This document shows positions 2,776-27,632 of a DNA stretch of 33,243 nt, one piece after another. Origin of the DNA: a virus; the IMG/VR virus record IMGVR_UViG_3300023174_000422, positions 1 through 33,243 of that record; one strand, given 5' to 3'. The stretch's first letter is position 1. Each line of letters starts with the position of its first letter. The notes under the pieces are model-generated. The model saw only the letters and a list, made by a program, of their open reading frames with translations. It was not told the DNA's origin and searched no databases. The translations under genes were made by a program, and so were the position numbers.

Positions 2776-4580
2776 TTCGTACCTTTCAAAGCATCAACTA
2801 ATGCGTTGTATTTTGTGGATTCTTGCACTTGTTTGGATATTTCTCGTGTCTTAGCTATGTCAGCCGCAGTTTTTGCCAATGGGAAACGAATAGCCGCTAA
2901 CTGATCCAAGCCGCGCATAACCACACTTCCAGTATTGGAGTAATTGACAGCGCCTTGCGGTTTGACCAAAGCATCTTGCACAGTATCACGCAAATCAATC
3001 AGGTTTTCACGCCCCTTTTTACCAAACATATAAGTTAACTTATCTTCACGATCTAGCGTGTCAATGGCAGATTTAAGCTTGGCAAACGACAGCTCACCGC
3101 TTGCATTCTTGGTTAACTGGTCTTTCAAATATTGCACAGTTTGACCTTGCAATTCTGCATAAGCCTGTTGCCCCTCAGGGCCACCCTTTTTCAGCAGCTT
3201 GGTGACTGTACGCATTTCTTCCAAACTGCCATCAAGCACCACATGGGAGAAAACATCATCCAGCGCCACAGCGCGGTCTGTATAGCCGCCTTTAGTGCCA
3301 AGCAATTTAGCCACGCGGTAGGTATTCTCAAACTCGTTAGCCAGCTCTTTGCGTTGCGTTCTTGCGGCGCGGTACATATCCCCGCCTGCGCCCTCAGTCA
3401 TGTCGTTAATTACGTTTTTGACTTGACGCATAAACACGCCCGATGGCTTGCCAGGCTCGCCTAACTGACCCGCAGCCTTATACAGATTTTCAACGTCATC
3501 AATGGTTACTTGCCCATTTGTAGTCGTTTTCAATGCTTCTAGCTTGGCTTTGATTGAATTGATCTCAGGCACAGAAATAGCCTCAGGCGCATTGTTAGCC
3601 AGCCATTGCTCTAAAGGCGCGGTGTCTACCACTTGTTTAGTTTCGCCAGCATCTCTAGCCGCTTGATAAGCTTCATCCACTTTAAGTTTTTTGGCATCAA
3701 ACTGCTTAACAATCTGTGTATCCACCAAAGAACCAATCTTGCGATAGGCGGTGGGGTCTGCATACTCAGCGCCAGTTTGATCTGCCAATTGCTCAAAGCG
3801 CTTCAAAATATCTTGTTTTTGACGCTGCTTAAACTCGGTCAGCGCTTTGGCTAAGTCAGGGTTTTCCTTAGGTAAATCAGATTCGCGCTTCAAAAGCCCA
3901 AAATCTTGTAACTGCTCGCCCTTGGTTAAAGGAATACCCTGTTGTAAGGCTCTTTCTTGGCGAATTAAAGCTTGATCTGTAGATGCCGCACCCATACCCG
4001 TCATTTGAGGATTTTTAGGCTGTAAAAGCGCCGCCATACGTTGCTGTGTGCTTGATGCAATAGGTGCAACCATGCCCCTAACTTGCCCAACTGCGGCAGG
4101 CGTTACAGCGCTTAACATAGCTCCAGTAGATCCCAATGTGGGCGGCAAAGCGCTTAAAACTTTGCCCATTGCGTTAACAATGTCAGGGCCTGTTTCTGTG
4201 CGTGGCTGATAAAACTGTTGGCTAGTGACTTGGGCGGCTTTTTGCCCCATTTCTTTGCCTTGTGGCGTTCCATAACCGCCATACGCCTCGCCAAACATCT
4301 TAGCCAAGGGCGTAGCTACCATTTGACCAACTTGGCCTGCAATGATCGCAGGGGTTTCAATTGCCCCCATGATTCGGTCTTGCATAGAAACAGGGGTAGG
4401 CGGTAAGGTTGTGCTACGTTCTGCGCCAGGTATCTGTGCGCTGCTTACGCCCAATTGCTCAAAGAATTTACCTCTTGGAATGTCCGCATAATATTTGCTA
4501 TGCAAGGCATCTGCCAATGCAAGATCAGGCATATCGTTGTATTCGGGGTTTTGAGCACGAAATTCAACTAAGGTTGCCAT
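2772..4580 (-). CDS. Probable internal virion / ejection protein, 602 aa
   Basis: The N-terminus (FRAQNPEYNDMPDLALADALHSKY, about residues 7-30) resembles the NPEYxDxxDxxLAxxLHxKYY motif of large phage internal proteins, followed by IPRGKFFEQLG. A moderately hydrophobic Ala/Gly-rich stretch (about residues 70-170) could interact with membranes. The rest is charged and mostly helical (residues 200-600). It lies between another internal-protein candidate and the tail spike, as ejection proteins do in podoviruses. No enzymatic motif is seen. Start and stop overlap the neighbours (TAATG upstream, ATGA downstream). Ejection is inferred from context and composition. Confidence 0.75.
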   Translation of the reverse strand: MATLVEFRAQNPEYNDMPDLALADALHSKYYADIPRGKFFEQLGVSSAQIPGAERSTTLPPTPVSMQDRIMGAIETPAIIAGQVGQMVATPLAKMFGEAYGGYGTPQGKEMGQKAAQVTSQQFYQPRTETGPDIVNAMGKVLSALPPTLGSTGAMLSAVTPAAVGQVRGMVAPIASSTQQRMAALLQPKNPQMTGMGAASTDQALIRQERALQQGIPLTKGEQLQDFGLLKRESDLPKENPDLAKALTEFKQRQKQDILKRFEQLADQTGAEYADPTAYRKIGSLVDTQIVKQFDAKKLKVDEAYQAARDAGETKQVVDTAPLEQWLANNAPEAISVPEINSIKAKLEALKTTTNGQVTIDDVENLYKAAGQLGEPGKPSGVFMRQVKNVINDMTEGAGGDMYRAARTQRKELANEFENTYRVAKLLGTKGGYTDRAVALDDVFSHVVLDGSLEEMRTVTKLLKKGGPEGQQAYAELQGQTVQYLKDQLTKNASGELSFAKLKSAIDTLDREDKLTYMFGKKGRENLIDLRDTVQDALVKPQGAVNYSNTGSVVMRGLDQLAAIRFPLAKTAADIAKTREISKQVQESTKYNALVDALKGTK

Positions 4581-6376
4581 TACTTTCTCCGCAAGCCTAA
4601 AGGATCAGTACCGCCACCCATTGGGGCTTTAGGTTGACCGCCCATATATTTGTCAATATAGGCTTGACCCTCTTTTGTAGTTCCAAGTCTCATGCCGTCA
4701 ATGGCTCGCTCTCGGGCTTCTGTTTTTTGTTTAATTACTTTGTCGCCCTCGCCAATCATGGGGAAAAACTCTTTAATGGTGTTTGACACCTCTGAAGCGC
4801 CAAACGATGCACCCGAGGTTTTACGCAACCATGCCGTGGCAAAGGCAATTTGAGCTTGTGCAAGGCGTTGCTGATCTGCGTTAGGGCCAACCAAACTTGT
4901 GGGGTCAGTCCTAGCAATAGATTCAATTTGATCTGCAACCTTTTCGCCAACGCCCAAAGGCACTAAACCAACCAAGCTTTGCATCATTGCAGGAATAACC
5001 GCATTTTTAACTGTTCCAGCTTTTTCAAGCTCTCTCATAGTGGTATTAGCTTGTGCCATTGAACCACCAAACAAAGCCGCATTGCTTTGACCCTCAGTCA
5101 TGTCTTTGTTGGCAGACATAAGTTTTTGTTTTGCAACCTCACGCTGATCCCGCGGGCTTAAGCCTGATACGTCTTGTATTTCTGCGGGCGCAGGCGCGGG
5201 CGCAGGAGCAACAGCGGGCGCTTTTGGGGCATTTAAAGGCGTGTATGCGCGACCTCTTGGCTGCACAGCAGGGGCAACAACAGGCGGCGCTCCAATAGGG
5301 GCGGCTTGTGCTGTTGGGATAGCAGGCTGCGAAACAGGTTGGTTTTGTATAGCACCTAAAACGCCAGTAGTAGGTGTGGGCGCGGTGGGTATTGCCACAT
5401 TTGCGCTAATACCTTGATCAGCCAATGTTGCTTTTTTAATATTAAGATCAGCCAAGGCCACCTTAAAGTCAAAGACATTTTTAGGTGTAATGCCACCCGC
5501 TTTGTTAACCAATGAAGTGTTGACCAAGTCCACAATGGCGGGGTTATCTTTCCAATTTTTTGGCAAAGCGCCAGCAACTTGCAAATCACCCAAAATGCCC
5601 ACCAAAGGTTTGGGTACACCAGCAGCCAACAATGGATCGCTCTTTTTAAAATAGCGTGTAACCGGTTGGCCTTGGTCATTGGTGGTTTCAACAGAAACCA
5701 AATCCTCAGGCTTTCTAGCGCCCTCAACAAATGTATCCAAAGGCGCGGGGGCGTTTTTATTAATCAATCCAGTGATTTCTTGACCATTAGGATCAAACTT
5801 ACTGTATTTTTCCCAGCTTGGTTTTTCGGGAATAGTTGACAATGGTTTTAATGTTCTTGGGTCTAAGAAAACATCCCCTGCGCTGGCTTTAATTGGCGCT
5901 TTAGGCGCGGCTTGTGCCAACAATTGCGCCATGTACGCTTGACGCACAGGCTCTGTCTTAATGCCCGATAAACCCTCGGCAGGCAGATAACCCGCTGGTC
6001 TTGCAGGAATAGTTGCTTGACCGCCTTGAGTGATAGTGCTTTGACCCTCTTGGAATGTTGGCTCAATAGCAGGCTGACCGGCTTGTGCTGGCGCTTGCAA
6101 AGCGCGAATCATGGCTTGGAAGTCGTTTGTAATGTCGCCTTGGTATTTTTCAGACAAGGCTTTTTGTTCTTCTTTTGCAGCTCTTGTTTCTTTGCCTGCT
6201 GTATAAGCATCAAGCATTTTGGCAAGACCTGAGGCGTGACTAACCCTTACGCCTGGCTGTTGGGGTAACGCCATCGGTTGCATAGACTGTTGTGCAAGCA
6301 TTTCTGCCATCCGCAAGCGCCTTGCAATAGCTTCGCTTTCAGCGGTGTAAGGGTTTAGGTTAATGTCAGGCATCAA
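4580..6376 (-). CDS. Probable internal virion / DNA-ejection protein, 598 aa
   Basis: A long, helical, Ala/Gln/Pro-rich protein. Near the C-terminus (about residues 515-565) it carries WLRKTSGASFGASEV, then EFFPMIGEGDKV and a KTEARERAIDGMR segment. This LRKxSGAxxxxxE...FFP..GD...K...R pattern recurs in putative DNA-transfer or internal proteins of many phages and prophages. A Pro/Ala linker around residues 375-395 suggests a flexible hinge. The gene overlaps its neighbours by 4 bases upstream (ATGA) and 1 base downstream (TAATG). A role in genome delivery is inferred. Confidence 0.75.
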   Translation of the reverse strand: MMPDINLNPYTAESEAIARRLRMAEMLAQQSMQPMALPQQPGVRVSHASGLAKMLDAYTAGKETRAAKEEQKALSEKYQGDITNDFQAMIRALQAPAQAGQPAIEPTFQEGQSTITQGGQATIPARPAGYLPAEGLSGIKTEPVRQAYMAQLLAQAAPKAPIKASAGDVFLDPRTLKPLSTIPEKPSWEKYSKFDPNGQEITGLINKNAPAPLDTFVEGARKPEDLVSVETTNDQGQPVTRYFKKSDPLLAAGVPKPLVGILGDLQVAGALPKNWKDNPAIVDLVNTSLVNKAGGITPKNVFDFKVALADLNIKKATLADQGISANVAIPTAPTPTTGVLGAIQNQPVSQPAIPTAQAAPIGAPPVVAPAVQPRGRAYTPLNAPKAPAVAPAPAPAPAEIQDVSGLSPRDQREVAKQKLMSANKDMTEGQSNAALFGGSMAQANTTMRELEKAGTVKNAVIPAMMQSLVGLVPLGVGEKVADQIESIARTDPTSLVGPNADQQRLAQAQIAFATAWLRKTSGASFGASEVSNTIKEFFPMIGEGDKVIKQKTEARERAIDGMRLGTTKEGQAYIDKYMGGQPKAPMGGGTDPLGLRRK

Positions 6377-7733: not shown

Positions 7734-9281
7734 TTACAAAACGCCACCAGCCTCAAACACTAGATCGGTAGCGACCCATTGCAATTGTATGCCCTGCGTA
7801 GCAGTTTTGATCAGCGGGGCAAACGTATATCCAATATTTGTGACCCCCTGCCAATCAGCGCTAGGCACTAAGCCCGATCCCCAAATAGCAGAATCCCACA
7901 ACCCTACTCCCCATATCCCATAACTACTAGGTGAAAAGTTAAGCTGTGCCGATTCATCTGCTAAGTTGTAATCCACGTTCACGTTTCCAAAGACAGATGG
8001 TGAACCATTTGATTGGAGGTGGTAGCGAATCATCTTGCATTGCTTTTGCAAGGCTGTGCCATAGGATTGGAAGCTCTGTAGCCCAAATCCAGCAATGTCG
8101 GCGGTGTCATCTGTGTTGCCATTCCAAGCCAAGCCCACATAGCCATCCCCACCAAAGTAAGGGTCATCTATGTGCAATTCCCAACAATTGGCATACCAGC
8201 CTGTAAAGTTACACCAGCTTTTGGTGATGTTGTTCATCACAAATTGCTGTTGCTCACCTTCGTCATAAGGCACATTTAAGATCAATTGATTTTCTTTTGG
8301 GTAATACAGCAAAGACCACCCAAAATTACCGCCATACGCCGATATTGCCGAACTCATGGCATATTGAATTTTGTTGGTAATAGATACCCTTGGATCAAGC
8401 CTAGAGCTTTGCAATGCCCCACTCATAGGCACTACGCCATCTTGAGTAATGATCAGCAAGTCCCCGCCAAACTTTGTATAGCAGCGCCTACCAATAGGTG
8501 CTCCAACTTTATAAAGTCCAATCTGTGAAATCCCTGTTGGTGTGGTTGGGTCTGTTAAGCGCCAAACAAGAGCCTCGCCATTGCTTGTGATAAACACCAA
8601 GTAATCATCAACACCATAACCCGCGTCTAGCGTCCAAGTCATCCCCGCCATGATGTAGCCGCCAAGCTGAAAAACACTGGTCATGTCTAACGCAACCGCC
8701 GCACCGCCAATAGAGTTAACAGGCAAATACCAAGCTTTTAAGGTGTTAGAAGTTGTAAGCCAAATGCGGTTTTTAAACAGGGTTATGTTTGAAACCGTTG
8801 CCGTATCCACATTGCTAATGTCATAAGGCGATCCATCGCCATCGGCGTGCCAATTTGTGCCATCAAAGGTGCGTAATTTATCTGCGCCGTTAACCGCCAT
8901 CAGGTAAGAGCCGCCTGGCGTGGTAATGTTTACATACTGAAATTTTGAGTTTGTAAGACCACTTACAGCCGCAGCTCCAACAGCGCCAGTATTGGTGGCA
9001 TCGTAAATCTTGCCATCAGAAACAGCAAATAACTTGTTTGAAGTTCCGGAGCTGTACGCCATCAGCGTTTGTACTTGAGCTGGCAAGCCTGTGGCGTGTT
9101 TGGTGTAGCCGTTTCGCAGGATGACCGAGTTAGTGCCAGGCCAAAAGTTTTGCAACGTCACAGCGTCTAGCGGGTCCATTGCCCCCAATGCATCCCGAGC
9201 ATTCCACCCACCAATGGGCGCGGCAACAGTAACCGTCTGAGATGCTTGCTGGCGCGGGATTCGGGCAAATGAATTTAACAT
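7734..9281 (-). CDS. Probable head-tail stabilisation / tail hub protein, P22 gp10-like
   Basis: A 515-residue protein beginning MLNSFARIPRQQ with TVAAPIGGWNARDALGAMDP, the start usual for packaged-DNA stabilisation or tail-hub proteins of podoviruses. The chain is beta-rich with repeated aromatic, Gly and Asp residues (for example FDGTNWHADGDG and SWCNFTGWYANCWELH), compatible with a propeller-like fold. It follows adaptor-type genes and precedes internal proteins, the expected place for a tail hub or nozzle component. Its ATG overlaps the preceding stop as TAATG. Assignment is by family resemblance from memory and by synteny. Confidence 0.78.
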   Translation of the reverse strand: MLNSFARIPRQQASQTVTVAAPIGGWNARDALGAMDPLDAVTLQNFWPGTNSVILRNGYTKHATGLPAQVQTLMAYSSGTSNKLFAVSDGKIYDATNTGAVGAAAVSGLTNSKFQYVNITTPGGSYLMAVNGADKLRTFDGTNWHADGDGSPYDISNVDTATVSNITLFKNRIWLTTSNTLKAWYLPVNSIGGAAVALDMTSVFQLGGYIMAGMTWTLDAGYGVDDYLVFITSNGEALVWRLTDPTTPTGISQIGLYKVGAPIGRRCYTKFGGDLLIITQDGVVPMSGALQSSRLDPRVSITNKIQYAMSSAISAYGGNFGWSLLYYPKENQLILNVPYDEGEQQQFVMNNITKSWCNFTGWYANCWELHIDDPYFGGDGYVGLAWNGNTDDTADIAGFGLQSFQSYGTALQKQCKMIRYHLQSNGSPSVFGNVNVDYNLADESAQLNFSPSSYGIWGVGLWDSAIWGSGLVPSADWQGVTNIGYTFAPLIKTATQGIQLQWVATDLVFEAGGVL

Positions 9282-9732: not shown

Positions 9733-10650
9733 TTAAACACTAGGCCAATTGCCGTCTTGCACACTCCAAGGCCCAACAAGCTGATTCATGCCAACAGGGG
9801 CAAGTGACATTGCTGAGACCGGTACATCCTGCGCTTTGCAGTACGAAAGCGATCTTGTGAATTCACCCAATTCAACGGTGAAATCAAGTTTCTTAGCTTT
9901 TAAGAAGTAAAACTTTAAGCCAGCCAGCATCAGGTCATCAGGGAAAATTGATGTGTCTGTGTCCGCTGTATATGTTGACTTTGAGCCTTGATCTGAGCCA
10001 GCCGCGCAAATCCAGTAGTTAGAAACATACTCAAAAGAGAAGTTATAAACCGTGGTCAAAGCTTGGAAAATCCTAAACTTGTTGTTGTATATCCGATAGC
10101 GCTCGCGTGGGCCAATAGAGATAATGCCGCCCTGTAAGAATTGCCAATCCTGAGATGACTTAGTTCCAAGGTTGCGCCAATGGTCTGTCCTGTCCCAATT
10201 GGTGTCCGAAATCATGCGGTCATAGCCGTCGGGCAAGTCATAGTCCTGTTTGGCAAACGTCATTGAAACCGAGGCAGTCGAGGTGGTTACAGGCGTGTTT
10301 AGCGTTACCTGTGTTGAGCTATCAATGGTCAAAATCTCAGCATAAGGCGCTTGCCCTGTGCCTGTAACCACGTTGCCAACTTGCAAAGCCGCTGTGCTTG
10401 GTATGTTAGTGATTACTTTAGAGTTTGCCGTTATGTTGCCTGTTGTGCTTACAGCGGTTTGGGTCTGCCAAATATACGCTTGCACCAAACGCTGCCATTC
10501 AAAGTCCCTGACCAAATCCCTGCCTAGCCGGTTAGCTAAAGCAAGAATTTGGATAGTCTGATTGTTAGATGAGCCAATTACTGACGGTGGCTGAGTTAAG
10601 CCCAGCTCTGCGGACATTTGATCAACCAGCTGCAGTAATGTGTAGCTCAT
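9733..10650 (-). CDS. Probable head-tail adaptor / connector protein, 305 aa
   Basis: Opens with MSYTLLQLVDQMSAELGL and contains QILALANRLGRDLVRDFEWQRL (about residues 31-52), a helical block seen in connector-type proteins of podoviruses with P22-like portals. A beta insertion (residues 65-130, GNITANSKVITNIPSTAALQVG) looks like a Hoc/Ig-like or barrel module, and a later part returns to helix (LKFYFLKAKKLDF). Position after the coat genes and before the stabilisation-type protein supports an adaptor. It is analogous to P22 gp4 by place; homology is not shown. Confidence 0.7.
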   Translation of the reverse strand: MSYTLLQLVDQMSAELGLTQPPSVIGSSNNQTIQILALANRLGRDLVRDFEWQRLVQAYIWQTQTAVSTTGNITANSKVITNIPSTAALQVGNVVTGTGQAPYAEILTIDSSTQVTLNTPVTTSTASVSMTFAKQDYDLPDGYDRMISDTNWDRTDHWRNLGTKSSQDWQFLQGGIISIGPRERYRIYNNKFRIFQALTTVYNFSFEYVSNYWICAAGSDQGSKSTYTADTDTSIFPDDLMLAGLKFYFLKAKKLDFTVELGEFTRSLSYCKAQDVPVSAMSLAPVGMNQLVGPWSVQDGNWPSV

Positions 10651-10651: not shown

Positions 10652-11230
10652 TCATTCCTCTACGGTTTCTTTTTTAGGTCTTCCGGCTTTTTTGTAGATC
10701 ATCGCACGAAGCTCAGCCAATTCAGCCTCTTGAGCTTCCATTTTTTTATCCATCTCAGCGCGAATCTTGTCCATCATCTGCGAATCTTGAGCCGCCATGA
10801 TGAAAGCCCGAGCCTTTGATCTCAAGTCGTTAAAACCCATAATCTTGTCGCCAGCCACATCAGGCAAATTGGCAAACTGGTCAATGGTAAAAATGTTAAG
10901 CGCTTTGAACTCTGCTTTTTGTGTTTCTGAAATTGCCATCCATGCGTCTATGGGTGTGCCAGCTACTTTTTGTTCTTTCTTCTGCTCGTATCTTGCCCAC
11001 TCAATGGGGTAATCTTCCATGTCTTGCTCACGCATAGGGCGGTCAACAACCAAGGTCGAGTCGCCTGGCACTAACTTCTTGATAAAAATGCGTTCTTCAA
11101 AAATTGGGCGCTTTTCTGCGTCTGATTTAAAGTTATTACGCACCTGTACAGCATGAAAAAACACCGCCATTTTGCCACGGTTATCTTCCATGAAGCTCTC
11201 GTTTGTCCAGCCTGCCACTTCGTTTTTCAT
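10652..11230 (-). CDS. Conserved virion-region protein, 192 aa
   Basis: Residues 20-90 include FFHAVQVRNNFKSDAEKRPIFEERIFIKK, a conserved block I recall from podovirus structural regions. The segment AEFKALNIFTIDQFANLPD (about residues 106-124) resembles a helix-hairpin-helix-like turn, and the C-terminus is a charged coiled coil ending in a basic AGRPKK. The gene overlaps the DUF115-like gene upstream by 4 bases and ends just before the adaptor gene. Its role is unknown; a minor structural or assembly protein is likely. Confidence 0.7.
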   Translation of the reverse strand: MKNEVAGWTNESFMEDNRGKMAVFFHAVQVRNNFKSDAEKRPIFEERIFIKKLVPGDSTLVVDRPMREQDMEDYPIEWARYEQKKEQKVAGTPIDAWMAISETQKAEFKALNIFTIDQFANLPDVAGDKIMGFNDLRSKARAFIMAAQDSQMMDKIRAEMDKKMEAQEAELAELRAMIYKKAGRPKKETVEE

Positions 11231-11964
11231 ATTAATTCCTTGAGTTTGAAAGCAGTTTCCTGCATAAGACCATCGCCGTAAAACACCACTTCAGCATCCT
11301 GCGTTTCAATGAATTTTTCCATTTCAATCGCCGCTTGGAGCATCTGCTGTGTTGTTTGGAAAGTTCTCAAACCAACTCTGACCATGATTTTAATCTGATC
11401 TTTGCCAGTATGAGCACCCGCGTGGCGGTTATTTGTGAATGAACAATCCATGCCATGAATGTCAAACCGGCGAAACCCTAAGGCTGCCGAAACATTCATT
11501 GCCCTCATGCCTACACTTGAACCGCCACCAATCAGGCTTTCCATGCCCTCGGGGTGGTGCTGGGCTACCCATGCCACCGTCTCGAAATCATCTCCATTTA
11601 CCAAATGCCATACCTTAACATTTTTCCCTTTAAGAGTCTCCCAAAAGTTTGGGTGGCAAACCGAGGCCATTAGATACTTAGTGTCTTTCTGCGGCTTTCT
11701 TAACATTTCAGCCTTATGCGGTCTTGGATCGCAGTCCACATGAAAGTCAGGAATAACACCCCTCTCCACCAAGTAATCATGCGCCCCTGAAACGGTCATT
11801 ATTGGGCGTTTGAGCTGTTTCCAAGTGTCTGCAAGGCTTGGCCCATAACAAGCAATGGTCATGCGCCGGTCGTTGAATTTGCCCTTTTTCTTAAGCAGGG
11901 GCAAGTGCATTGACTTTGCCATCTGCTCATGGCGCTCGGCGTTACTCAAGACCCCTTTAAGCAT
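11227..11964 (-). CDS. DUF115 / MptE-like Rossmann protein, 245 aa
   Basis: Contains IACYGPSLADTW (about residues 37-48), PIMTVSGAHDYLVERGVIPDFHVDCDPRP, YLMASVCHP, LIGGGSSVGMRAMNVSAALGFRRFDIHGMD and HAGAH. The GPSL, D-x-D and GGGSSVG-x-RA elements are typical of the DUF115 / 6-hydroxymethylpterin pyrophosphokinase MptE-like fold, which in bacteria and phages accompanies glycan or flagellin-glycosylation loci. It pairs with a second DUF115 domain in the 544-aa protein; a methyltransferase gene lies between them. A role in sugar modification of the particle or host surface is inference. Confidence 0.75.
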   Translation of the reverse strand: MLKGVLSNAERHEQMAKSMHLPLLKKKGKFNDRRMTIACYGPSLADTWKQLKRPIMTVSGAHDYLVERGVIPDFHVDCDPRPHKAEMLRKPQKDTKYLMASVCHPNFWETLKGKNVKVWHLVNGDDFETVAWVAQHHPEGMESLIGGGSSVGMRAMNVSAALGFRRFDIHGMDCSFTNNRHAGAHTGKDQIKIMVRVGLRTFQTTQQMLQAAIEMEKFIETQDAEVVFYGDGLMQETAFKLKELI

Positions 11965-12458
11965 TCAACCCTCATGTCTCTAAATGGGAAATGGTAGCGA
12001 GGCTCGCAAAACGTGATGTTCTGCATTCCCACGGTTTCCAACATATCACGCAAAGGATTTTGAAACCAGCCCCAATGGTGGCACATGGCCTCAGACTTAT
12101 ATTTGGGGTCACCATACAACGCATTTAGCGTCATAAAGGGCTGTAAAGGCTCTTTGTTGACCACGCAGTTATGGACATAGGCAAACACCTTATCCATGCA
12201 GGGAAGCTCTAGAATCATCTTGCCGCCAGGCTTTAAAACCCGCTTCCACTCGCTCAGTAGGTCATAAACTTCCCACTCATAAAAGTGTTCTAGAACGTGA
12301 ATTGCCGCTACAGCATCAGCAGAATCGCTTGCAATTTCTAGTTTTCTAAGGTCGCATTTGATGTCGGAAATATCAGAATGCAGATCTACGTTTATCCAAC
12401 CGTCCCATTTCTTTGATCCGCATCCAAGGTTGTAGGCCGTCTCGTAGCGCTCTTCCAT
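11946..12458 (-). CDS. SAM-dependent methyltransferase, class I
   Basis: From the ATG at 12458 the 170-residue product starts MEERYETAYNLGCGSKKWDG; NLGCGSK is the SAM-binding motif I, INVDLHSD the acidic loop, and HVLEHFYEWEVYDLLSEWKRVLKPGGKMILELPC the usual motif IV-V block of small-molecule or sugar methyltransferases. The frame is open to 12626, but the extra N-terminus lies within the preceding gene and lacks family features. The gene overlaps the 544-aa gene by 67 bases and the DUF115-like gene by 19. The substrate is unknown; its two glycan-type neighbours suggest a sugar. Confidence 0.85.
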   Translation of the reverse strand: MEERYETAYNLGCGSKKWDGWINVDLHSDISDIKCDLRKLEIASDSADAVAAIHVLEHFYEWEVYDLLSEWKRVLKPGGKMILELPCMDKVFAYVHNCVVNKEPLQPFMTLNALYGDPKYKSEAMCHHWGWFQNPLRDMLETVGMQNITFCEPRYHFPFRDMRVECLKGS

Positions 12459-14026
12459 TTGTCGATCAGTATTTGAGGCGAGAATTCTTCCCTCACGAAT
12501 TTCTGCGCCTTGGAAATGAGTTCGTTCATGTTCTGCTGTTTTGTCCATTCGATGCCCTCTTTGATGTTGCCGATGTAGATCGGGAAACCCTCTAAGGCTG
12601 GATGCGGCTCTGCAACCACAAAACAACCCTGTCGAATTGCCTCAATTGCCCTGTTTGCGCTTTTGTAAGAAGCCGTGGTAGGGATCACCACTATATCGGC
12701 TCGGGCAAATTCTTCCAACATGGTTTCTTTCGACCAAGGAATCGCCCCCTCAAAGTTTGACACCACCCGCAAGGGATAACCCTTGAGGTCAGGCAGTATG
12801 CGCTGCAAGCTATCACGGTTGACGTGATGCCCAAACCACAGCAAATTTGTCCCAGCGTAATGCGGTGGCATCTCGGGAAACTCATAAGGGTCGGCAATGA
12901 CAGTAGCATCCCGCCCTAGCTCTTTAATCTTTTTAGCCATTTCTGCGGTGTTGCAAGTTACCGCATCAGCCAGCCGCAGCGCCTCTTGATAGTGAGGCCA
13001 ATCAAAATGATCGTCACAAAAGTCCACCACTACCCAAGCGCCTCGGGCTTTAGCTCTTGCCATGTCCATTAATTCATTGGCTTGCGGTTTAGCAAATATC
13101 AACGTGTCAGCGCTGTGGTCGTTTAGGCTGGCCCAATCTTGCGATGGAATATGCGCCCTGTAGCGCCAGCTTGCCGCATTCTTGTTGCCCCAATGAATGA
13201 ACGATGTACGCCCATTGGGTTGCTTGCTTGAGTCAATTAGCGCTTGAAGCTCTACCGCATTTTCCTCGCGCTTCTTAATAATTGCTTGAATCAGACCATG
13301 ACCAAATGGGTAAAACCTTGCATCAGGCAGATAGTCATAGTACGTTTGGAAGTGTTCGGCCTGCAAAGCCATAGACGCATTGCAATAAAACGTTTCGCCA
13401 TTTTCCTCAATTCTGACCTCGTTTAAATTATCGCTATCTTTAATATGGTCGCCGTTAACCCTAAGTTTGTCGCCATCATTGCAAGAATCAAACCCAAATA
13501 AAGCAAAGTGACGATAGCCCAAAACGTAATATAGGGAAATGGCTCTAAGCCCTGAGGTTGTGCCACCACCAATCAGCATTGAGTTTTTGGGGCGGTTTTG
13601 GCCTTTGGTTATGTAAGGATGCCAAATTGTAATTTTATGATCTTTAAGGTGATCAAACATCGACTGATGGCATTGGCTTGCAATCATGTATTCAACGCCC
13701 TTGTGTGGCGTTTTAAAGCAGTTCCAGCGGTGTTCTTGTGGGTCAATTGCCAAAGCATCGTTTGGAATCAATCCTTGGCTAATTAGCCAATCATGTGCGT
13801 CTTTGATGGCAACAATTTTTACGCCATCCGCTTGCATCTTTTTAATGGTATCTATTTGCCCCGACACGCTTGGCCCTGATGCTACCAACGCAATCATGCC
13901 CTCTTTAGCATTTTCTGCTTTGGTGATCTGCGGGTAGCCCCGCGCTATTGCTGCGTCCATGTTGGCAAACAATGTCTCATCATCTGCGACACATTTACCA
14001 ATAATTTTAAGGGGAACAAATGCCAT
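12392..14026 (-). CDS. Two-domain protein: N-terminal DUF115 / MptE-like, C-terminal glycosyltransferase-like
   Basis: Residues 45-270 carry the same elements as the 245-aa neighbour: ALVASGPSVSGQID, KDAHDWLISQGLIPNDALAIDPQEHR, YMIASQCHQ, LIGGGTTSGLRAISLYYVLGYRHFALFGFD. Residues 305-530 resemble a GT-B glycosyltransferase half (TLIFAKPQANEL, VTCNTAEMAKKIKELG, LLWFGHHVNRDSLQRILPDL, then ADIVVIPTTASYKSANRAIEAIRQGCFVVAEPHPALEGFP). The fusion suggests a single protein that makes and transfers a glycan. It begins just after an intrinsic terminator whose 3' arm contains its probable Shine-Dalgarno sequence. The acceptor is unknown; virion proteins or host surface are options. Confidence 0.75.
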   Translation of the reverse strand: MAFVPLKIIGKCVADDETLFANMDAAIARGYPQITKAENAKEGMIALVASGPSVSGQIDTIKKMQADGVKIVAIKDAHDWLISQGLIPNDALAIDPQEHRWNCFKTPHKGVEYMIASQCHQSMFDHLKDHKITIWHPYITKGQNRPKNSMLIGGGTTSGLRAISLYYVLGYRHFALFGFDSCNDGDKLRVNGDHIKDSDNLNEVRIEENGETFYCNASMALQAEHFQTYYDYLPDARFYPFGHGLIQAIIKKREENAVELQALIDSSKQPNGRTSFIHWGNKNAASWRYRAHIPSQDWASLNDHSADTLIFAKPQANELMDMARAKARGAWVVVDFCDDHFDWPHYQEALRLADAVTCNTAEMAKKIKELGRDATVIADPYEFPEMPPHYAGTNLLWFGHHVNRDSLQRILPDLKGYPLRVVSNFEGAIPWSKETMLEEFARADIVVIPTTASYKSANRAIEAIRQGCFVVAEPHPALEGFPIYIGNIKEGIEWTKQQNMNELISKAQKFVREEFSPQILIDKWKSATRRPTTLDADQRNGTVG

Positions 14027-14611: not shown

Positions 14612-15592
14612 TTATTCAGTCATCACGCCTTGGAACTGGAGTCCCGAGGCAGTCATATTGCCAGCCCAGCCGATCAAGCGCACGATGGCATCTTGGTTGG
14701 TGGACATACGCTCATCACCAATCGGAACAAAGTTACGATTTGCATGAGGACGGAAGAAAATGTATTTCGTGTTCAAGAAATAACCAGTAGATGTCGGGAT
14801 GTTGCCGCCGATACCACCGTCAAGAACAACGTCTGCATTCATGTACTTTGAAGCAACAAAGCCGAGTTCAGCCATTTTGCTAGATCCTGGGAAACGCTGA
14901 ATGTTTTGCAGGGAACTCATGAAGAAGCCCCACAAGTTGTTATCCAACAAAATCAAATCGACTACGTCAGAGCCGCGACTTGTCTTTGCATACAGGCGGT
15001 TAAAACCGGTCTGAATGTTTGAGCTGGAAGCAGAAGCACCCAAGTCAGAAGAGAAGTCAAAAGTCTGATTACGCCAAAATGACCATGTAGCGCGGTCAAT
15101 ACCACCGACCACACCCGTAGAGGGCGATGCGACCACCATAGCTTGCAGACCAGTGATCTGCTTGCCGTTGTTGGCTGTACCGTCTGAATAAATACCGGTA
15201 GAGATCAAGTTCTCAATCGATGCCTCGGCAACGTCCAAACGTGCATCAAACAAATCGATGATCTGTTCTTCGCCGCTGTTTTGGAGCATTTCCAAGCCAT
15301 TGATGGTAACTGCCACCGCTGCTTGTTTGATAGGGAACTGAGCCGCAGAGATAACGTCCGCAGGGCTGATGTCTAAGACTTCAGCGCCTGAGTAGTACAT
15401 AGCGGTTGAGTTTGCTTGGAATGACAATTCTTGCAGAATGGTCGAACCACCTGTGAAAGGCTTGTAACGGCCTTTCTCACGCAGGCGAGTCAGCAACGCA
15501 TTGTTTTTGGTCACGTTATCAGCAACGATGCCGGAACGTGATTCAATGGTAGTGGCTAAAACGTCTGAGTAATTACTATTGGCGTATGCCAT
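14612..15592 (-). CDS. Major capsid protein
   Basis: A 326-residue protein opening MAYANSNYSDVLATTIESRS, followed by ADNVTKNNALLTRLREKG, GGSTILQELSF, YYSGAEVLDISPADVISAA and VAVTINGLEMLQNSGEEQIIDLFDAR. I recall this set in major capsid proteins of podoviruses infecting Proteobacteria, including Bordetella BPP-1-type relatives, which have the HK97 fold. The length, the scaffold gene just upstream and a very strong ribosome binding site (AAAAAGGAG before the ATG) agree. Confidence 0.9.
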   Translation of the reverse strand: MAYANSNYSDVLATTIESRSGIVADNVTKNNALLTRLREKGRYKPFTGGSTILQELSFQANSTAMYYSGAEVLDISPADVISAAQFPIKQAAVAVTINGLEMLQNSGEEQIIDLFDARLDVAEASIENLISTGIYSDGTANNGKQITGLQAMVVASPSTGVVGGIDRATWSFWRNQTFDFSSDLGASASSSNIQTGFNRLYAKTSRGSDVVDLILLDNNLWGFFMSSLQNIQRFPGSSKMAELGFVASKYMNADVVLDGGIGGNIPTSTGYFLNTKYIFFRPHANRNFVPIGDERMSTNQDAIVRLIGWAGNMTASGLQFQGVMTE

Positions 15593-17442: not shown

Positions 17443-18483
17443 TTATGCCCCCCACTTAGCTGCTAATCCATCCGCGTAAGTCTTGTTAACAATGTCTGTG
17501 GCTGCGCTTGGCGCTGTGCTGATCGTGCCTGTGGTCAAAGCCACCGATGTGATTGAGCCGCCAAGGGTTAAGTTTCCTGTGCTGGTGACTGTGCCTGTCA
17601 AGGTCAAGCCGTTAACTGTTCCTGTACCGCCGACTGAGGTAACTGTTCCTACGCTTGTTGAGCCGCCCAACGATGTGGCAACGCCATTTATTGTGATTGA
17701 GGAGTAAGTTAAGGCGCTGTTTGGTATTGATGTTAAGCCCGAACCTGACCCCGAAAATGACGTAGCCGTAATTGTTGTGCCTGTAATGGCTTTGGGCGTA
17801 ATCCCGCCAATTACCAAGTTATCCAATGTGCCTGTATTGGTAGGCGCTATCTCAACCGATCCTATCCCTGTGGGCTTCATGTGGACGTGGCCTGTCCCTG
17901 TGGGGCTTATATCGACTTGGGCATTTGAGCCGTTAATGTTGGTTGAGACATTTAGCGTCAAGTTATCGCCACCGCCTGCACCCATACTTAGCTGCGTTGT
18001 GCCTGATGCGTTTTTAAGGGATAACCCTGCCGAATTAGTGGCTTGAACTGTTGGAGTAGATAGGCTTGTAAGGGTAGCCGTTCCACCTGTAATCGTCACC
18101 GAATTGGCGTTTTGGGTAGACATTGTTCCCAAGCCGCTAATGTCAGTATTGCTTAACGTGACTTCGCCAAATTTGCCAGCCACCGAAATAACTGTTTTAC
18201 CAGCAGGCAAGGTAACAAACACATCTTTTGTGCCTGCCGTCAATAAAAGCTTAGACCCGCCGTTAGATGAGCTTAAAACAGTGTCTCGGCTTAACGTATT
18301 GGAAAGATACGTCCCAATGCCTACCTCCCATTCGGTAGTCCCTTGAATCGTGTAATAAGTTGTGTTGTTGTTGCCAACCGCTGTAAATGCTTGAAACCCA
18401 GCCACCGCGCCATCAAGAGATAACGTGCCTGTTCCTGTCGTGGTGGTGGTTTCCCTAACCCTGTCCGCTATGACAAAGCTCAT
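17443..18483 (-). CDS. Fibre-like structural protein encoded beside the portal, 346 aa
   Basis: Residues 1-100 (MSFVIADRVRETTTTTGTG, then NNTTYYTIQGTTEWEVGIGTYLS, LSRDTVLSSSNGG, TKDVFVTLPAGKTV) form a block I recall in many environmental phage structural proteins. Residues 110-330 are Thr/Gly/Ser-rich beta repeats. The end (SAATDIVNKTYADGLAAKWGA) resembles the ATxxxVNKxYvD motif of phage fibres. It lies between portal and small head proteins, far from the tail spike, so a head fibre or head-decorating appendage is possible. The ATG overlaps the portal stop as ATGA. Confidence 0.75.
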   Translation of the reverse strand: MSFVIADRVRETTTTTGTGTLSLDGAVAGFQAFTAVGNNNTTYYTIQGTTEWEVGIGTYLSNTLSRDTVLSSSNGGSKLLLTAGTKDVFVTLPAGKTVISVAGKFGEVTLSNTDISGLGTMSTQNANSVTITGGTATLTSLSTPTVQATNSAGLSLKNASGTTQLSMGAGGGDNLTLNVSTNINGSNAQVDISPTGTGHVHMKPTGIGSVEIAPTNTGTLDNLVIGGITPKAITGTTITATSFSGSGSGLTSIPNSALTYSSITINGVATSLGGSTSVGTVTSVGGTGTVNGLTLTGTVTSTGNLTLGGSITSVALTTGTISTAPSAATDIVNKTYADGLAAKWGA

Positions 18484-20765
18484 ACTGCAATCTCAACACC
18501 CGCCGCCCGACCATCAGGCCCACGAATAATGCGCTTGGGTGCGCTGATTGCCTGCATTACACCGGTAATCTGTCCAAGGGTTTGACCGTGCATATCAGCA
18601 AGGCGGTTAATTGCTTCGCTCATGCCGTCACCCAAGGTAGCGTCTAGCTCTTCGGATGCCGCCATTTGTGCGCTTAAGGCCGCTTGATCGAGGCCAGCTT
18701 TTGCACCAATTTGAGCCACAAGGACTTTAGTCGCTGCATCAAGCTCTGCTTTCCATCGCTCATATTCTTCCTTTCCAGCCATTTCACGGGCTTTTATCTG
18801 CATCTCGTTATTTTGTTTTGCCGCTTCAAACTCGGCTTTCATCTGCTGCAGCTGCATCTCGGCCTGCACCTTGGCTTGTTGCATCTGCATATCAAGCTGG
18901 GCTTTGACTTGCGTCATCTGTGCGTCAGCCTGCATTTTCATTTGCTCTGTCTGTGCCTGTGCTTGCATCCGCATCTGTTCAGCTTGCTGGTCAGCCTGTA
19001 GCTTCATCATCTCAGGATTTGGCTGTGGCTGCTGTGCCGCCTGTGCCGCTTTGTCGGTCAAGGCTTTCATGGCCTGCTCAATTGCGCCCTCCATCCCTCT
19101 ACCCGCCCTAAATCTGCGAACAAGGAATAAAAGCATTTCTGACATCATGGGCAACATCTCAGGGACGCTTTGCATGATAGGCAATGAGCTTTGCAGGAAT
19201 GAGCCAATGGTCTCCACCGCTTCAGCCGCCGCTTGCTTTTCTGCTTGCTCATCAATTTGAGCCAAGCTATCGGCCTCGACTTGGATGTGGAAGTCCCTGA
19301 TCGTGCTGTTAGACAGCATTTGGATCGCTGCTTGCAACAACTGGGGATTCTGACCGTCTTGCGTATTCATCACGCCCGACATCTCAACAATTAACTCAGG
19401 TGGGTAAAACTTGCAAATGATCTGAGCTTTGAGCTTAAACACATCAGTGGCAAACCGCGCCACATCGCCTTGGGCGCTACGCAGACGCAAGCTACCAAAG
19501 TTGGCCTTAAGCTGTTGAGCACCAAGGGTTTCTTGGGCTTTGGACGATCCGCGCAGAATGTCCGATATGCCCATAATCTCGTAGATCGACTGCTTGACCT
19601 GTTCCCGAGCCGCATACAACTCCCGCAAGGTCACAATGATCTGCGAGGTGTCCATCATGTCAATAGCGCCTTTTAAGCCGCCTTTTTCTGACATTGCCGC
19701 CCAGCCGGTCACAGGGAATAACTTGTTGTCCACGCCCTCGCTAAACATCCGCGCCAGCTCTTTAAACTCGGCATTGAACACACCAACCGCCTTACAAGCC
19801 TTGGTCAGCAAGTAAATGCGCTGTGTTAAGTTGTCTAACTCTTGTGCCTGATCCTCGTATTCGCAGTAATCAGGAATTGGAATCATTGTCCCTGTGGTGG
19901 TGGTCGCCAACAAGGGTTTAGGGCAAGGGAAGAATTCTTCTAGCTCTAAGGGGTCATCTCTCTCGTCTAGCGCCTGTGGATAACCTTTGGCAATCCAGCA
20001 AACTTTACCGCTGCGCTTATTCCATATCTCATAGACCTTGGCTTTTTTGTCATAGGTCATCTTGGCGGTCAAGGGATTCTTGCCGTCCATGTCGGTGTTT
20101 TGGCTGGTCAGGCTTACGTTTTTAAATACGTCCCCAAAGCGCTCAACGCCCTCATCCTTGGTCATGTAGACCGCCCGAGCTACCCACCAAACCTCGTCCC
20201 ATGTGCGAGCTGGTGAATGCAAGAAGTCAGCCCAGTAAACGTAATCAATGGGGCTGTGGGCGGCATCAATGCGCTCCACCGGCTCTTCCACTACGTCATA
20301 AACCTGTGCTTCTTCTGATTCTTGGCTTTCAATCTCAGGGCTACCGCCAACAATGATCGGCTCGTAGCGAATCCATGCTGTACCGCGACCAGGCAGCAAT
20401 CTATCCTCAACCACCCCACGCATTGCATTATCAAAGTCAGCAAATTGGGTGGTCTCGTACTCCATGACCCTCTCAAGCATTGTTGAGGCAAGGCGACCTA
20501 CAGGGTCTTGGTCGGAGAATCGGCGCGATACCTCGGGTTTGGCTTGTCTGCCGTAGAGAGACGGAAACAGAACTTGAATGTTTGACCACAGGATGTTGAA
20601 CTTCATCCTTGGCATCTCTATTGCATCACGTTCATCCCGATAGCGCTTGACAACCTTTTGACCGCGCTTTTCCCATTTGTCAAATGACTTTTGGGCGGTC
20701 TCTATTTGATCGTGCCAATAAGGGCCAGCATCTTCGCCCTCGTATGCGCCTGTTTCTTCGTACAT
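18480..20765 (-). CDS. Portal protein, P22-type
   Basis: A 761-residue protein right after the large terminase and a 92-aa gene. Residues 20-150 include KRGQKVVKRYRDERD, PRMKFNILWSNIQVLFPSLYGRQAKPEV and MRGVVEDRLLPGRGTAWIRYEP, blocks I recognise from P22-type portals. GISDILRGSSKAQETLGAQQLK (about residues 405-426) matches their conserved central helix. From about residue 583 to 680 runs a Met/Gln-rich coiled coil, comparable to the C-terminal helical barrel of P22 portal. Portal dodecamers form the packaging and ejection channel. Confidence 0.9.
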   Translation of the reverse strand: MYEETGAYEGEDAGPYWHDQIETAQKSFDKWEKRGQKVVKRYRDERDAIEMPRMKFNILWSNIQVLFPSLYGRQAKPEVSRRFSDQDPVGRLASTMLERVMEYETTQFADFDNAMRGVVEDRLLPGRGTAWIRYEPIIVGGSPEIESQESEEAQVYDVVEEPVERIDAAHSPIDYVYWADFLHSPARTWDEVWWVARAVYMTKDEGVERFGDVFKNVSLTSQNTDMDGKNPLTAKMTYDKKAKVYEIWNKRSGKVCWIAKGYPQALDERDDPLELEEFFPCPKPLLATTTTGTMIPIPDYCEYEDQAQELDNLTQRIYLLTKACKAVGVFNAEFKELARMFSEGVDNKLFPVTGWAAMSEKGGLKGAIDMMDTSQIIVTLRELYAAREQVKQSIYEIMGISDILRGSSKAQETLGAQQLKANFGSLRLRSAQGDVARFATDVFKLKAQIICKFYPPELIVEMSGVMNTQDGQNPQLLQAAIQMLSNSTIRDFHIQVEADSLAQIDEQAEKQAAAEAVETIGSFLQSSLPIMQSVPEMLPMMSEMLLFLVRRFRAGRGMEGAIEQAMKALTDKAAQAAQQPQPNPEMMKLQADQQAEQMRMQAQAQTEQMKMQADAQMTQVKAQLDMQMQQAKVQAEMQLQQMKAEFEAAKQNNEMQIKAREMAGKEEYERWKAELDAATKVLVAQIGAKAGLDQAALSAQMAASEELDATLGDGMSEAINRLADMHGQTLGQITGVMQAISAPKRIIRGPDGRAAGVEIAV

Positions 20766-20767: not shown

Positions 20768-21046
20768 TCAGCTACCAGCGGCAAAGAAGAATGTCACATC
20801 TAATGCTGTGCCACCAATCGTGGCGTACAAACTGACACCTACGTTTGCAGGGAATCGGTGAAACCCAATGGCAGGGGTAATAGTGCCACTCATTACTTCG
20901 CCACTAGCGCCGCCATTGCGGAGTACCAAAGTGCCTACGGTTGTGCTGTTGACGTAGAACCCAATCAACTGGCAAGGGCCTGGCGTTACTGCGCCGGTTG
21001 CGGTGATGTTCTTATATCCACCGACTTCTGCTACTGGTGCACTCAT
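20768..21046 (-). CDS. Small beta-rich structural protein, 92 aa
   Basis: Sequence GGYKNITATGAVTPGPCQLIGFYVNSTTVGTLVLRNG, then SGTITPAIGFHRFPANVGVSLYATI, ending FFFAAGS. Its short beta strands and Gly/Thr/Val content fit a small particle-surface or decoration-type protein. It is coupled to terminase by ATGA and sits two bases before the portal start. I know similar short proteins in phage genomes but no experimentally assigned role. Confidence 0.68.
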   Translation of the reverse strand: MSAPVAEVGGYKNITATGAVTPGPCQLIGFYVNSTTVGTLVLRNGGASGEVMSGTITPAIGFHRFPANVGVSLYATIGGTALDVTFFFAAGS

Positions 21047-22362
21047 ATTCGCTCCTCTTTATGTTGCATCTCATAATCCCACAGCTCATCAAGAGTGATG
21101 GTTTGCAGGGTCTTGCCCTTGGGCGGTGTCAAATCTCTTGCTTCTTGTCTATAAGCTACTGCAAGCATTCTAAACGCATCTGCGGGGTGTGAGCACCAAT
21201 CATGGCGTGGAGTTTGACGAAAAGTTTTCTTATCTTCATCATATTCCCGCTGATATTGCCTTAACGCTTCCAGCCCCTCATCGCAGCTTGTGTCAAACCA
21301 GCATATTGGCAAAATCATCCGCACCGCTTGGATGCCGTCCTGTATACCAATCTCAGGCACGATGGCTAACTTGCTCAAACCCCCAAGGTGCGATGCCAGC
21401 TGCTCAACAATAGACTTACCCCCCGATGCCAGCGTTTTAGCCCTAGCGTCATGCGGTAGGTAATGCTTGGTATATCGATAACCCTTAGAGTTAACAACGC
21501 TTGCAATTTCCTCAATGCTTGCGCCGCTGACCGCGTAATAGTCCATTACCCTGATCTCGCCCCTGACCACTTGATACCACCAAATCGCTGTGTCGTCCCG
21601 ATAACCTAAGTCCCATGCGGTGTAAACAGGGGACTCAGGCTCAAAGGGTAGCTCACATATTCGGCCTGCGTCTTGGGCTTGGCGCATCTCTTGACCATAG
21701 AAAGCCCCAAGGATGGCGGCATCAAAGCTGCACTCATACTCTTGGTCGTATTGGTCTTGGCTTAACTGAGACCGAGCCGCTTCTAATTCTGAGTCGGGCA
21801 ATAGATTGGACATTGATGCCGGCAGCCTTAACAAAAACCAATCAGGCACAACTTGGCTTACCTTATAGATGTCGTGAAACTGATTCTTGCCTTTGGGCGT
21901 ACCACCAAAGACCGCCCAGCCTAGTCGGTCTGACAATGTGGGACGAATGACGTTACCCCACACGCTAGGTTTGAAGTCGCCGTATTCATCAAGGTAAACG
22001 CCGTTAAAGCCCAAGCCCCGCATAGCATCTGCGTTATCTGAGCCAAACAGCATGATCTTTGCGCCGTTTAGCAGCTCAACTGACAAGTCCGATTCATTGG
22101 TGGCCTTAGTTACTGGCGCGGCGTAGAACTTAAGGTAATCCCATGCCACCCGCTTGGCTTGGCTACGAAATGGTGCAATGTAGGCATATTGGGCTGATCT
22201 ATTGCCCTCGGTTATGGCTCGCTTGATCAGGTCATTGATTGCCGCTACGGTCTTGCCAGCCCTACGGTGGGCAACCAAACAAGACCAGCGCTCAGTCCTG
22301 TTGTGGAATGGCATGAATGCCTCCCTTGGTGAATAGGGCAGGATTATTTCCCTGCTGCCCAC
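21043..22362 (-). CDS. terL: Terminase large subunit
   Basis: A 439-residue packaging ATPase-nuclease. Walker A is AHRRAGKT at residues 31-38, Walker B VYLDEYGD at 122-129, and the coupling motif GGTPKG at 153-158. The RNaseH-like nuclease half has Asp251 in AWDLGYRDD, HD at 304-305 in YLPHDARAK, and Asp395 in SHPADAFRM. The start is GTG at 22362, within the last 19 bases of the small-subunit gene. The protein docks on the portal to pump DNA and cut it. Confidence 0.95.
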   Translation of the reverse strand: MGSREIILPYSPREAFMPFHNRTERWSCLVAHRRAGKTVAAINDLIKRAITEGNRSAQYAYIAPFRSQAKRVAWDYLKFYAAPVTKATNESDLSVELLNGAKIMLFGSDNADAMRGLGFNGVYLDEYGDFKPSVWGNVIRPTLSDRLGWAVFGGTPKGKNQFHDIYKVSQVVPDWFLLRLPASMSNLLPDSELEAARSQLSQDQYDQEYECSFDAAILGAFYGQEMRQAQDAGRICELPFEPESPVYTAWDLGYRDDTAIWWYQVVRGEIRVMDYYAVSGASIEEIASVVNSKGYRYTKHYLPHDARAKTLASGGKSIVEQLASHLGGLSKLAIVPEIGIQDGIQAVRMILPICWFDTSCDEGLEALRQYQREYDEDKKTFRQTPRHDWCSHPADAFRMLAVAYRQEARDLTPPKGKTLQTITLDELWDYEMQHKEERI

Positions 22363-26702: not shown

Positions 26703-27632
26703 TCATGCTAATTCCAAAGAAAGTTGGCTTATGCGTTTATCTTGCAAAGGTTTGTAATTAAGATTTAATTCACATCCTAAATATTGCCGACCAAGGTCTT
26801 GTGCCACTTGTGCTGTTGTACCGCTACCCATAAAAGGGTCAAGCACTACACCGCCAACTGGTGCACCAGCAAGTATGCAAGGCTCAATTAATTCTGTTGG
26901 GAAAACTGCAAAATGTGCGCCAGCATACGGTTTGGTGTTAACTGTCCAAACGCTGCGTTTGTTTGCCATTTCGTAAGATTTTTCCAAACCACCGTGTGGC
27001 GGCAATCCACTTCCCTCATTGTGATACTTACCATCAGCTCTGTCTCTTGTTCCCCAATCTTGTTTAACAGGGTCTTTGATGGATTCGTGATCGTAATAAT
27101 ATTTATGAGATTTGCTTAATAAAAATATGTATTCATGCGCTTTTGTGCATCGATCTTGCACAGATTCAGGCATGGGGTTGGGTTTGTGCCAAATAATATC
27201 TTGACGTAAATACCAACCATCAGCACGAAGCGCAAAAGCAAGCATCCAAGGTATGCCAATTAAGTCTTTTTCTTTAAGGCCTTCAAGTTTTAATCCGCGC
27301 TTATGGCAAATTTCAACCTCTGAGAATTTTTGACTTGCAATTGATTGCTTACCTTGACGTTGACCTTGGCCAGGTCGGTAGTTGTAATAGCTATCCCCAA
27401 TGTTTAGCCACAGCGTCCCATCATTCTCCAAAACGTCCCACACACACCTAAAAACCTCCACCATTGATTTAATGTAATCCTCGGGAGTTTCTTCAAGGCC
27501 AATTTGCCCATCATGTCCATAATCTCGCAGACCATAGTAAGGGGGGCTAGTAACGCAAGTTTGTGCCTTTATACCCTGCTCTTTCCACCTACGCATAGTT
27601 TCCCTGCAATCACCAAATTCAATTTTGTTCAT
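26703..27632 (-). CDS. DNA methyltransferase, beta class (probably N4-cytosine)
   Basis: Motif IV is TSPPY at residues 28-32 (VTSPPYYGLRDYG) and motif I is DPFMGSGTT at 265-273; IV-before-I order defines the beta class. TSPPYYGLRDYG is a common phage-type signature, usually assigned to N4-cytosine or N6-adenine targets. Residues 96-117 (GQGQRQGKQS and on) may be the recognition segment. It is an orphan enzyme with no restriction partner. The start overlaps the preceding stop as ATGA. Confidence 0.92.
   Translation of the reverse strand: MNKIEFGDCRETMRRWKEQGIKAQTCVTSPPYYGLRDYGHDGQIGLEETPEDYIKSMVEVFRCVWDVLENDGTLWLNIGDSYYNYRPGQGQRQGKQSIASQKFSEVEICHKRGLKLEGLKEKDLIGIPWMLAFALRADGWYLRQDIIWHKPNPMPESVQDRCTKAHEYIFLLSKSHKYYYDHESIKDPVKQDWGTRDRADGKYHNEGSGLPPHGGLEKSYEMANKRSVWTVNTKPYAGAHFAVFPTELIEPCILAGAPVGGVVLDPFMGSGTTAQVAQDLGRQYLGCELNLNYKPLQDKRISQLSLELA

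Follow-up and report, generated by a model that had tools for sequence, protein, structure and literature searches.

Gene content of the locus

The window analysed here is the whole of a 33,243-base virus record (IMG/VR record IMGVR_UViG_3300023174_000422); its minus strand encodes a podovirus head module of Mx8-like type. Our subject is a block of three genes (11227-14026, minus strand) lying immediately after the genes for the major capsid and decoration proteins; it encodes DUF115GT, in which a DUF115 domain is joined to a predicted glycosyltransferase, a class I S-adenosylmethionine (SAM) methyltransferase, and DUF115b, a stand-alone compact DUF115 protein (Table 1). In the order of transcription the head end reads terminase, portal, small genes, capsid, decoration and the block, and this is followed by a p50-like gene, the adaptor, an 'amidase'-type protein and the fibres. 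The capsid protein is 57% identical to that of Stenotrophomonas phage BUCT555 and 51% identical to that of Mx8.

An original prediction, made from the DNA letters alone, had placed three overlapping genes with two DUF115 domains between the capsid/decoration genes and the head-tail adaptor. The genes and their order stand, but the p50-like gene separates the block from the adaptor. Both domains are also secure, as PF01973 (DUF115, presently named 'MptE-like' in Pfam) exceeds its curated cut-off of 34.6 bits in DUF115b (67 bits) and in DUF115GT (61 bits, residues 34-183).

Table 1. Position and best matches of the head-module genes and of the GT8-like gene in the window
Feature	Position	Strand	Match or remark
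GT8-like glycosyltransferase, 226 aa	23912-24592	-	phrog_28018, E 9e-40; PF01501 weak
Terminase	21043-22362	-	
Portal	18480-20765	-	
Major capsid protein (Mx8 p48-like)	14612-15592	-	phrog_9953 major head protein, E 2e-105
Decoration protein (Mx8 p49-like), 177 aa	14066-14599	-	phrog_29386 virion structural protein, E 1.8e-6
DUF115GT, 544 aa	12392-14026	-	PF01973, E 1.5e-16
Out-of-frame overlap of DUF115GT and methyltransferase, 157 nt	12392-12548	-	both frames apparently coding
Class I SAM methyltransferase, 200 aa	11946-12548	-	PF08241, E 4e-10
DUF115b, 245 aa	11227-11964	-	PF01973, E 1.9e-18
Mx8 p50-like protein, downstream border of the slot	10652-11230	-	phrog_20268, E 3e-13
Head-tail adaptor / Mx8 p51-like tail protein	9733-10650	-	phrog_6013, E 7e-43; SU10_adaptor weak
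'Amidase'-type protein	7734-9281	-	

Conservation and selection

DUF115-based scans returned 160 loci (many contigs being counted in both scans), in which the gene order, where covered, was capsid, decoration, DUF115GT, methyltransferase, DUF115b, p50 and adaptor. A second sample of 80 records was picked by capsid alone, so that the block itself did not select the relatives. Sixty-eight of these records reach at least 1 kb beyond the capsid gene and every one of the 68 has the block, meaning that phage-encoded glycosyltransferases are conserved together with the virion module; all three genes were present in each of the 38 records that cover the whole region. The original prediction had named absence of the cluster from close relatives as evidence against itself, and the cluster was found throughout this sample.

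All three genes are under strong purifying selection. The median ratio of nonsynonymous to synonymous change (dN/dS) was 0.058 for DUF115b, 0.060 for the methyltransferase outside the overlap, and 0.089 and 0.081 for the two halves of DUF115GT, with 0.043 for the capsid gene. Given these ratios (0.06-0.09), the Pfam E-values and the 38 of 38 complete relatives, the block is not a chance assembly of reading frames; its place behind the capsid and decoration genes is fixed.

Predicted folds and conserved motifs

The AlphaFold2 (AF2) model of DUF115b has a predicted local distance difference test score (pLDDT) of 91.4 and a predicted template modelling score (pTM) of 0.90. The top solved structure in Foldseek was the flagellin glycosyltransferase Maf (5mu5, E 2.2e-7, TMq 0.68), followed by MptE (8sd5, E 1e-5) and then by CMP (cytidine monophosphate)-bound human ST6GALNAC2, ST8SiaIII and CstII (E ~1e-3). 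A profile built from 46 phage sequences gave the same order against PDB sequences (Maf 5e-10, MptE 1e-4). The GPS and GxD motifs and the histidine that follows (His181) are conserved in 69 of 69 family members, and a histidine is present in the GxD loop of the eight other phage DUF115 proteins examined, not always in the same alignment column. Against the full-length PseD model DUF115b scored 18 bits (cut-off 670) and lacked the three-domain architecture, and no close bacterial homologue of it was found in the genome contigs searched.

DUF115GT, a recognisable paralogue of DUF115b (28% identity), consists of an N-terminal DUF115 domain (about residues 30-262) and a C-terminal GT-B glycosyltransferase domain (about 270-530). 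Its AF2 model is good except for the ends and one loop (pLDDT 84.9). The N-terminal half again matched Maf 5mu5 (E 1.6e-7). The C-terminal half fell below the Pfam cut-off for PF13524 (22.4 versus 25 bits) and matched the GT-B enzyme SenB (8jjn, E 3.8e-7, target TM 0.59), with the GT-B protein O-glycosyltransferases SdgB and GtfA also among the fold matches; as modelled, it is a complete two-Rossmann GT-B glycosyltransferase fold. Glu462, within NRAIEAIRQG, is invariant in the alignment, while the first position of E-x7-E, which we take to be the motif expected of GT-B (GT4-like) glycosyltransferases, is Tyr454.

The DUF115 half of this protein differs from DUF115b in one respect. PS and GxD are kept, but the histidine column holds a glycine in 72 of 72 sequences and there is no conserved histidine anywhere in the loop after GxD. 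In GT42 enzymes the histidine after the GxD motif is the general base. Because the conserved histidine is absent, this half may have been turned into a binding domain, although its absence falls short of proof. Taken together, the Maf, MptE and sialyltransferase folds predicted for DUF115b and the GT-B fold predicted for DUF115GT support the glycosyltransferase reading of the original prediction.

The methyltransferase and the GT8-like protein

The methyltransferase matches PF08241 (Methyltransf_11) with 40.6 bits against a cut-off of 21.2; its motif I, NLGCG, is invariant across relatives and its length is conserved. We place its start at the conserved ATG at 12548 (200 aa) and not at the TTG at 12626 that opens the longest open reading frame (ORF), because relatives begin at the same ATG and a purine-rich site, AAAGAGGG, lies just upstream. 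The resulting 157-nt overlap with DUF115GT in another frame is kept in relatives. Within it synonymous change is suppressed in both frames (dS 0.32 and 0.55, versus 0.7 and 0.9 outside), as expected if the segment is read in both, which is what the substitution pattern suggests. The nearest NCBIfam model is the mycofactocin oligosaccharide methyltransferase MftM; this match is weak and far below cut-off and is therefore only a hint that the enzyme acts on a sugar.

The GT8-like gene lies 10 kb from the block. Its Pfam match is weak (E 0.007); most of its length aligns, at 37% identity, with a gene in a glycosyltransferase cluster of another phage (locus L302, described below). The block and this gene had previously been linked as glycosyltransferase-type proteins of one phage; consistent with that link, the gene was present in 30 of 30 near-complete records that bear the block. 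The GT8-like protein is likely an accessory member of the same pathway.

The slot between the decoration and p50 genes in other phages

In Mx8 and ppBjS10J-1 the slot between the decoration and p50 genes is empty, and in BUCT555 it holds four small genes, including a holin and an endolysin; p50 is in the same place in all three. Large inserts are uncommon among the 120 Mx8-like loci with a measurable slot. We found DUF115 proteins in this slot in the following further arrangements: (i) a DUF115-methyltransferase fusion followed by a GT8-like gene (loci L186 and L313); (ii) a DUF115-methyltransferase fusion alone (L334, L459 and L460/L461); (iii) a GT8-DUF115-FkbM fusion (L297, a Rhodopila metagenome-assembled genome (MAG)) and (iv) DUF115 alone (L252, a Gemmatimonadaceae MAG). 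For the L459 and L460/L461 proteins, a methyltransferase half is predicted from their length and from alignment over the whole L334 protein. In L460/L461 the order decoration, DUF115 fusion, 'amidase' is kept and p50 and adaptor genes were not recognised. The carriers of these arrangements are Mx8-like phages and prophages with diverged capsids.

One slot thus appears to bring together, in several combinations, a sugar-transferring DUF115, a sugar-transferring enzyme of a second fold, and a methyl-transferring one. Other slot contents are a concanavalin-like (LamG) protein or long repeat-rich proteins, which fit a position for particle-surface functions. It had been proposed to look for the same block beside different capsids. 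In its exact form the block stays with a single capsid clade, but rebuilt sets of DUF115, methyltransferase and glycosyltransferase genes do occupy the same slot elsewhere. In our tree the L186 and L313 DUF115s are sisters, and the window DUF115b and the DUF115 half of DUF115GT are not. As the tree does not resolve whether the slot DUF115s are monophyletic, they may stem from one acquisition or from several. No relatives of the L252 DUF115 were found in viral contigs.

Some related genes lie elsewhere. The compact DUF115s of viruses L331 and L342 are within tail or packaging gene runs. In L302, which has a contractile tail, a five-gene set (1714-5449) directly beside the tail sheath gene comprises a weak DUF115-like gene, the window-type GT8 gene, a GT-B-looking ORF, a second GT8-like gene and an FkbM methyltransferase; this set may glycosylate the tail. 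The GT8-like domain of the L297 prophage protein matches PmgQ of phage P1 (30% over 159 residues). P1 pmgQ (hdmD in P7) has a putative morphogenetic function and is annotated as a glycosyltransferase.

The decoration protein as candidate acceptor

Serine and threonine make up 23% of the decoration protein, against a median of 17% in 65 relatives. This richness is suggestive only. In other Mx8-like phages, too, decoration homologues come after the capsid gene. We considered a DUF115-specific decoration family and rejected it, since homologues are widespread without DUF115.

When the window was compared with the DNA of its relative L002, identity was 95-97% in the adaptor, p50, DUF115b, methyltransferase and capsid genes. 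In DUF115GT, by contrast, it fell to 69% over the DUF115 half and 89.6% over the GT-B half, and the decoration gene stood at 81%. The sharp contrast in the decoration gene and the DUF115 half could reflect either a recombination tract or a co-evolving pair. Across close relatives, divergence of the decoration gene tracked that of the DUF115 half (rho 0.56-0.58, the best-correlated pair), as against 0.16-0.33 for the capsid gene, which is the other neighbour of the decoration gene, and 0.06-0.12 for the GT-B half. We treat this correlation as a pointer and not as proof, because adjacency alone could yield part of it.

Relation to known systems

Maf O-glycosylates Ser/Thr residues of flagellin, and its PF01973 domain resembles the sialyltransferase CstII (PMC11339370). 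Maf/PseD (PDB 5MU5) shares PF01973 with DUF115b and is its best structural and profile match; the GPS and GxD...His signature is kept in DUF115b, but only in part in DUF115GT. Maf is nonetheless a three-domain protein of 632-666 aa, whereas DUF115b is a bare 245-aa domain and phage DUF115 is otherwise fused to GT-B, methyltransferase or GT8 domains; no flagellin gene was recognised in the window. The GT42/GT29 sialyltransferases (CstII, ST6GALNAC2) come next in fold after Maf and MptE, but DUF115b has no significant sequence match to them. In the case of the GT-B enzymes SenB and SdgB/GtfA, the C-terminal half of DUF115GT superposes over ~320 columns, at a sequence identity of only ~16% and, unlike in those enzymes, as a fusion to DUF115.

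In bacteria, a profile run over 398 Pseudomonadota genomes recovered three compact DUF115s (160-198 bits) and otherwise large Maf-like proteins (33-57 bits), and the Maf-like rows split from the compact DUF115s in the tree with full support. One compact DUF115 (in the region 3407-11999 of L457) adjoins two proteins with TPR/GT41 domains, GT41 being the O-GlcNAc (O-linked N-acetylglucosamine) transferase type, which modifies proteins. A second is found close to a GT9 heptosyltransferase, so that compact DUF115s accompany the glycosylation of proteins as well as that of surface glycans. The second TPR/GT41 gene of L457 is preceded by an NLGCG-type methyltransferase-like stretch, and the region looks like a protein-glycosylation locus.

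There is precedent for phages glycosylating their own particles. The mycobacteriophages Che8 (gp110), Corndog (gp38) and Myrna glycosylate their virion proteins (PMC12363180), so that the kind of system envisaged here is already known (PMC12363180; PMC11256854). As in the window, the glycosyltransferases are phage-encoded. In Maravista, a Che8 relative, they are encoded near the genome end and not in the head module (PMC11256854), and a tblastn search of 50,697 annotated phage records at E 1e-5 matched neither window DUF115 protein, which sets the present system apart from the mycobacteriophage ones.

Proposed function and alternatives

We favour the possibility that the block is a phage-encoded cassette that glycosylates the virion surface, the decoration protein being the preferred candidate for the acceptor, and regard this as reasonably probable. 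The strongest reason for a virion role is that DUF115 sets recur in this slot in phages whose capsids have diverged; the original prediction had left open whether virion proteins or host sugars are the target, and the position of the slot favours the virion. A plausible scenario is that the cytoplasmic block enzymes act on virion subunits during late gene expression. The GT-B domain of DUF115GT would take a sugar from a nucleotide-sugar of the host and attach it to the acceptor, for which the Ser/Thr-rich decoration protein is the likeliest candidate, with the DUF115 half, which lacks the conserved histidine, mainly binding that acceptor. DUF115b, whose fold is nearest to Maf and the sialyltransferases, would extend the glycan with one more sugar, whose donor may be a CMP-activated acidic sugar; the methyltransferase would methylate the glycan, and the distant GT8-like enzyme would add another residue. 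The capsid surface would thereby come to carry a methylated oligosaccharide, with the effect of altering adsorption, masking the particle, or both.

Several points weigh against this scenario. Virions are formed by Mx8 and other relatives that have no PF01973 protein at all, and the module as such can therefore do without the cassette; decoration homologues likewise occur without DUF115, and the coupling of decoration and DUF115 divergence may be plain linkage of adjacent genes. The late operon also holds non-virion genes, the lysis genes of BUCT555 occupying the very same slot. Finally, the proteins scanned included none recognised as making nucleotide-sugars, which means that donors must come from the host.

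The main rival is modification of a host-surface glycan (lipopolysaccharide (LPS)/O-antigen or other) that blocks superinfection or keeps particles from sticking to debris. That one bacterial compact DUF115 shares a glycan locus with a GT9 heptosyltransferase is in keeping with this, and late-operon genes need not be structural, as BUCT555 illustrates. We nevertheless consider it unlikely: the capsid/decoration neighbourhood is kept across very different architectures, whereas a moron region would be expected for such genes rather than repeated placement behind a decoration gene, and PHROG and Pfam scans, in which some small ORFs went unscanned, recognised no membrane flippase or seroconversion protein. 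Somewhat less probable again is glycosylation of a host protein such as flagellin or pilin, or of another phage protein (p50, adaptor or fibres). Maf does modify flagellin (PMC11339370) and the L302 cluster adjoins the tail sheath and not the head, but there is no flagellar gene nearby, and in the lineage of the window the decoration gene borders the block and the two have diverged in step.

Two further explanations we judge to be very improbable. DUF115 proteins could act in pterin metabolism as 6-hydroxymethylpterin pyrophosphokinases, like archaeal MptE (8SD5), which shares the Pfam family, core fold and compact size of DUF115b and is its second-best fold match. Maf matches better, however, both by profile and by fold, no folate or pterin gene was recognised in the window proteins scanned, and the partners of DUF115 in the other architectures are glycosyltransferases and methyltransferases; we accordingly dropped a pterin kinase as the leading idea. 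The same slim chance applies to hypermodification of DNA by glycosyltransferases that target modified bases. The window does encode N4/N6 DNA methylases (22703-23905 and 26703-27632), one of them beside the GT8-like gene, but no base-hydroxymethylating or pyrimidine-modifying gene was seen, and the block sits in the virion module with best relatives that act on proteins or glycans.

The virion-glycosylation scenario can be taken further, into a version that we find doubtful. The slot behind the decoration gene of Mx8-like phages would repeatedly receive DUF115 sets as a swappable virion 'glycotype' cassette, and in the lineage of the window the DUF115 half of DUF115GT, catalytically altered and serving as the acceptor-recognition domain, would be exchanged together with the decoration protein while the GT-B domain, methyltransferase and DUF115b stay, so that near-identical capsids get different sugar coats.

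Implications

The phages carrying the block form a widespread, uncultured, tailed group that probably coats its own particles with sugar. Among tailed phages, a few mycobacteriophages are known to glycosylate their virions, and the enzyme type here, DUF115, is a different one: a Maf/sialyltransferase-like protein fixed behind the capsid genes of abundant environmental phages and rearranged in the same slot of distant relatives. We found no relevant paper on DUF115 or MptE-like proteins in phages in the searchable literature, which most subscription journals lie outside; within it, there appears to be no account of this Maf-like enzyme class, of a slot beside the capsid genes that repeatedly holds rearranged cassettes, or of the fusion of DUF115 to GT-B. 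The decoration protein offers a concrete, testable acceptor hypothesis. If it is correct, the question of why phages wear sugar in nature, where antibodies are absent, becomes directly testable.

Our results also suggest that most phage DUF115 proteins, whose current name refers to a pterin kinase, are enzymes that transfer glycans. BFVD/UniProt 'MptE-like' proteins of uncultured Caudovirales (for example A0A6J5PVH5 and A0A6J5L5C1), 540-700 aa long, have the same fold as DUF115b (TMq 0.85-0.87), but are annotated by Pfam name only. With A0A6J7XC21 and A0A6J7X5Q0 they make up four proteins of 540-714 aa with a DUF115 fold, three of them named after the pterin kinase. Their lengths suggest fusions like those of the slot phages, and they are probably further DUF115/glycosyltransferase/methyltransferase fusions under a misleading name.

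Other genes of the window

Two DNA methylases of the N4/N6 type are present in this small phage genome, and one of them is a ParB-type domain fused to the methylase. A strong match to phrog_3704 (named ferredoxin; moron/auxiliary category) lies at 31268-31933, adjoining the ERF/YqaJ recombination genes.

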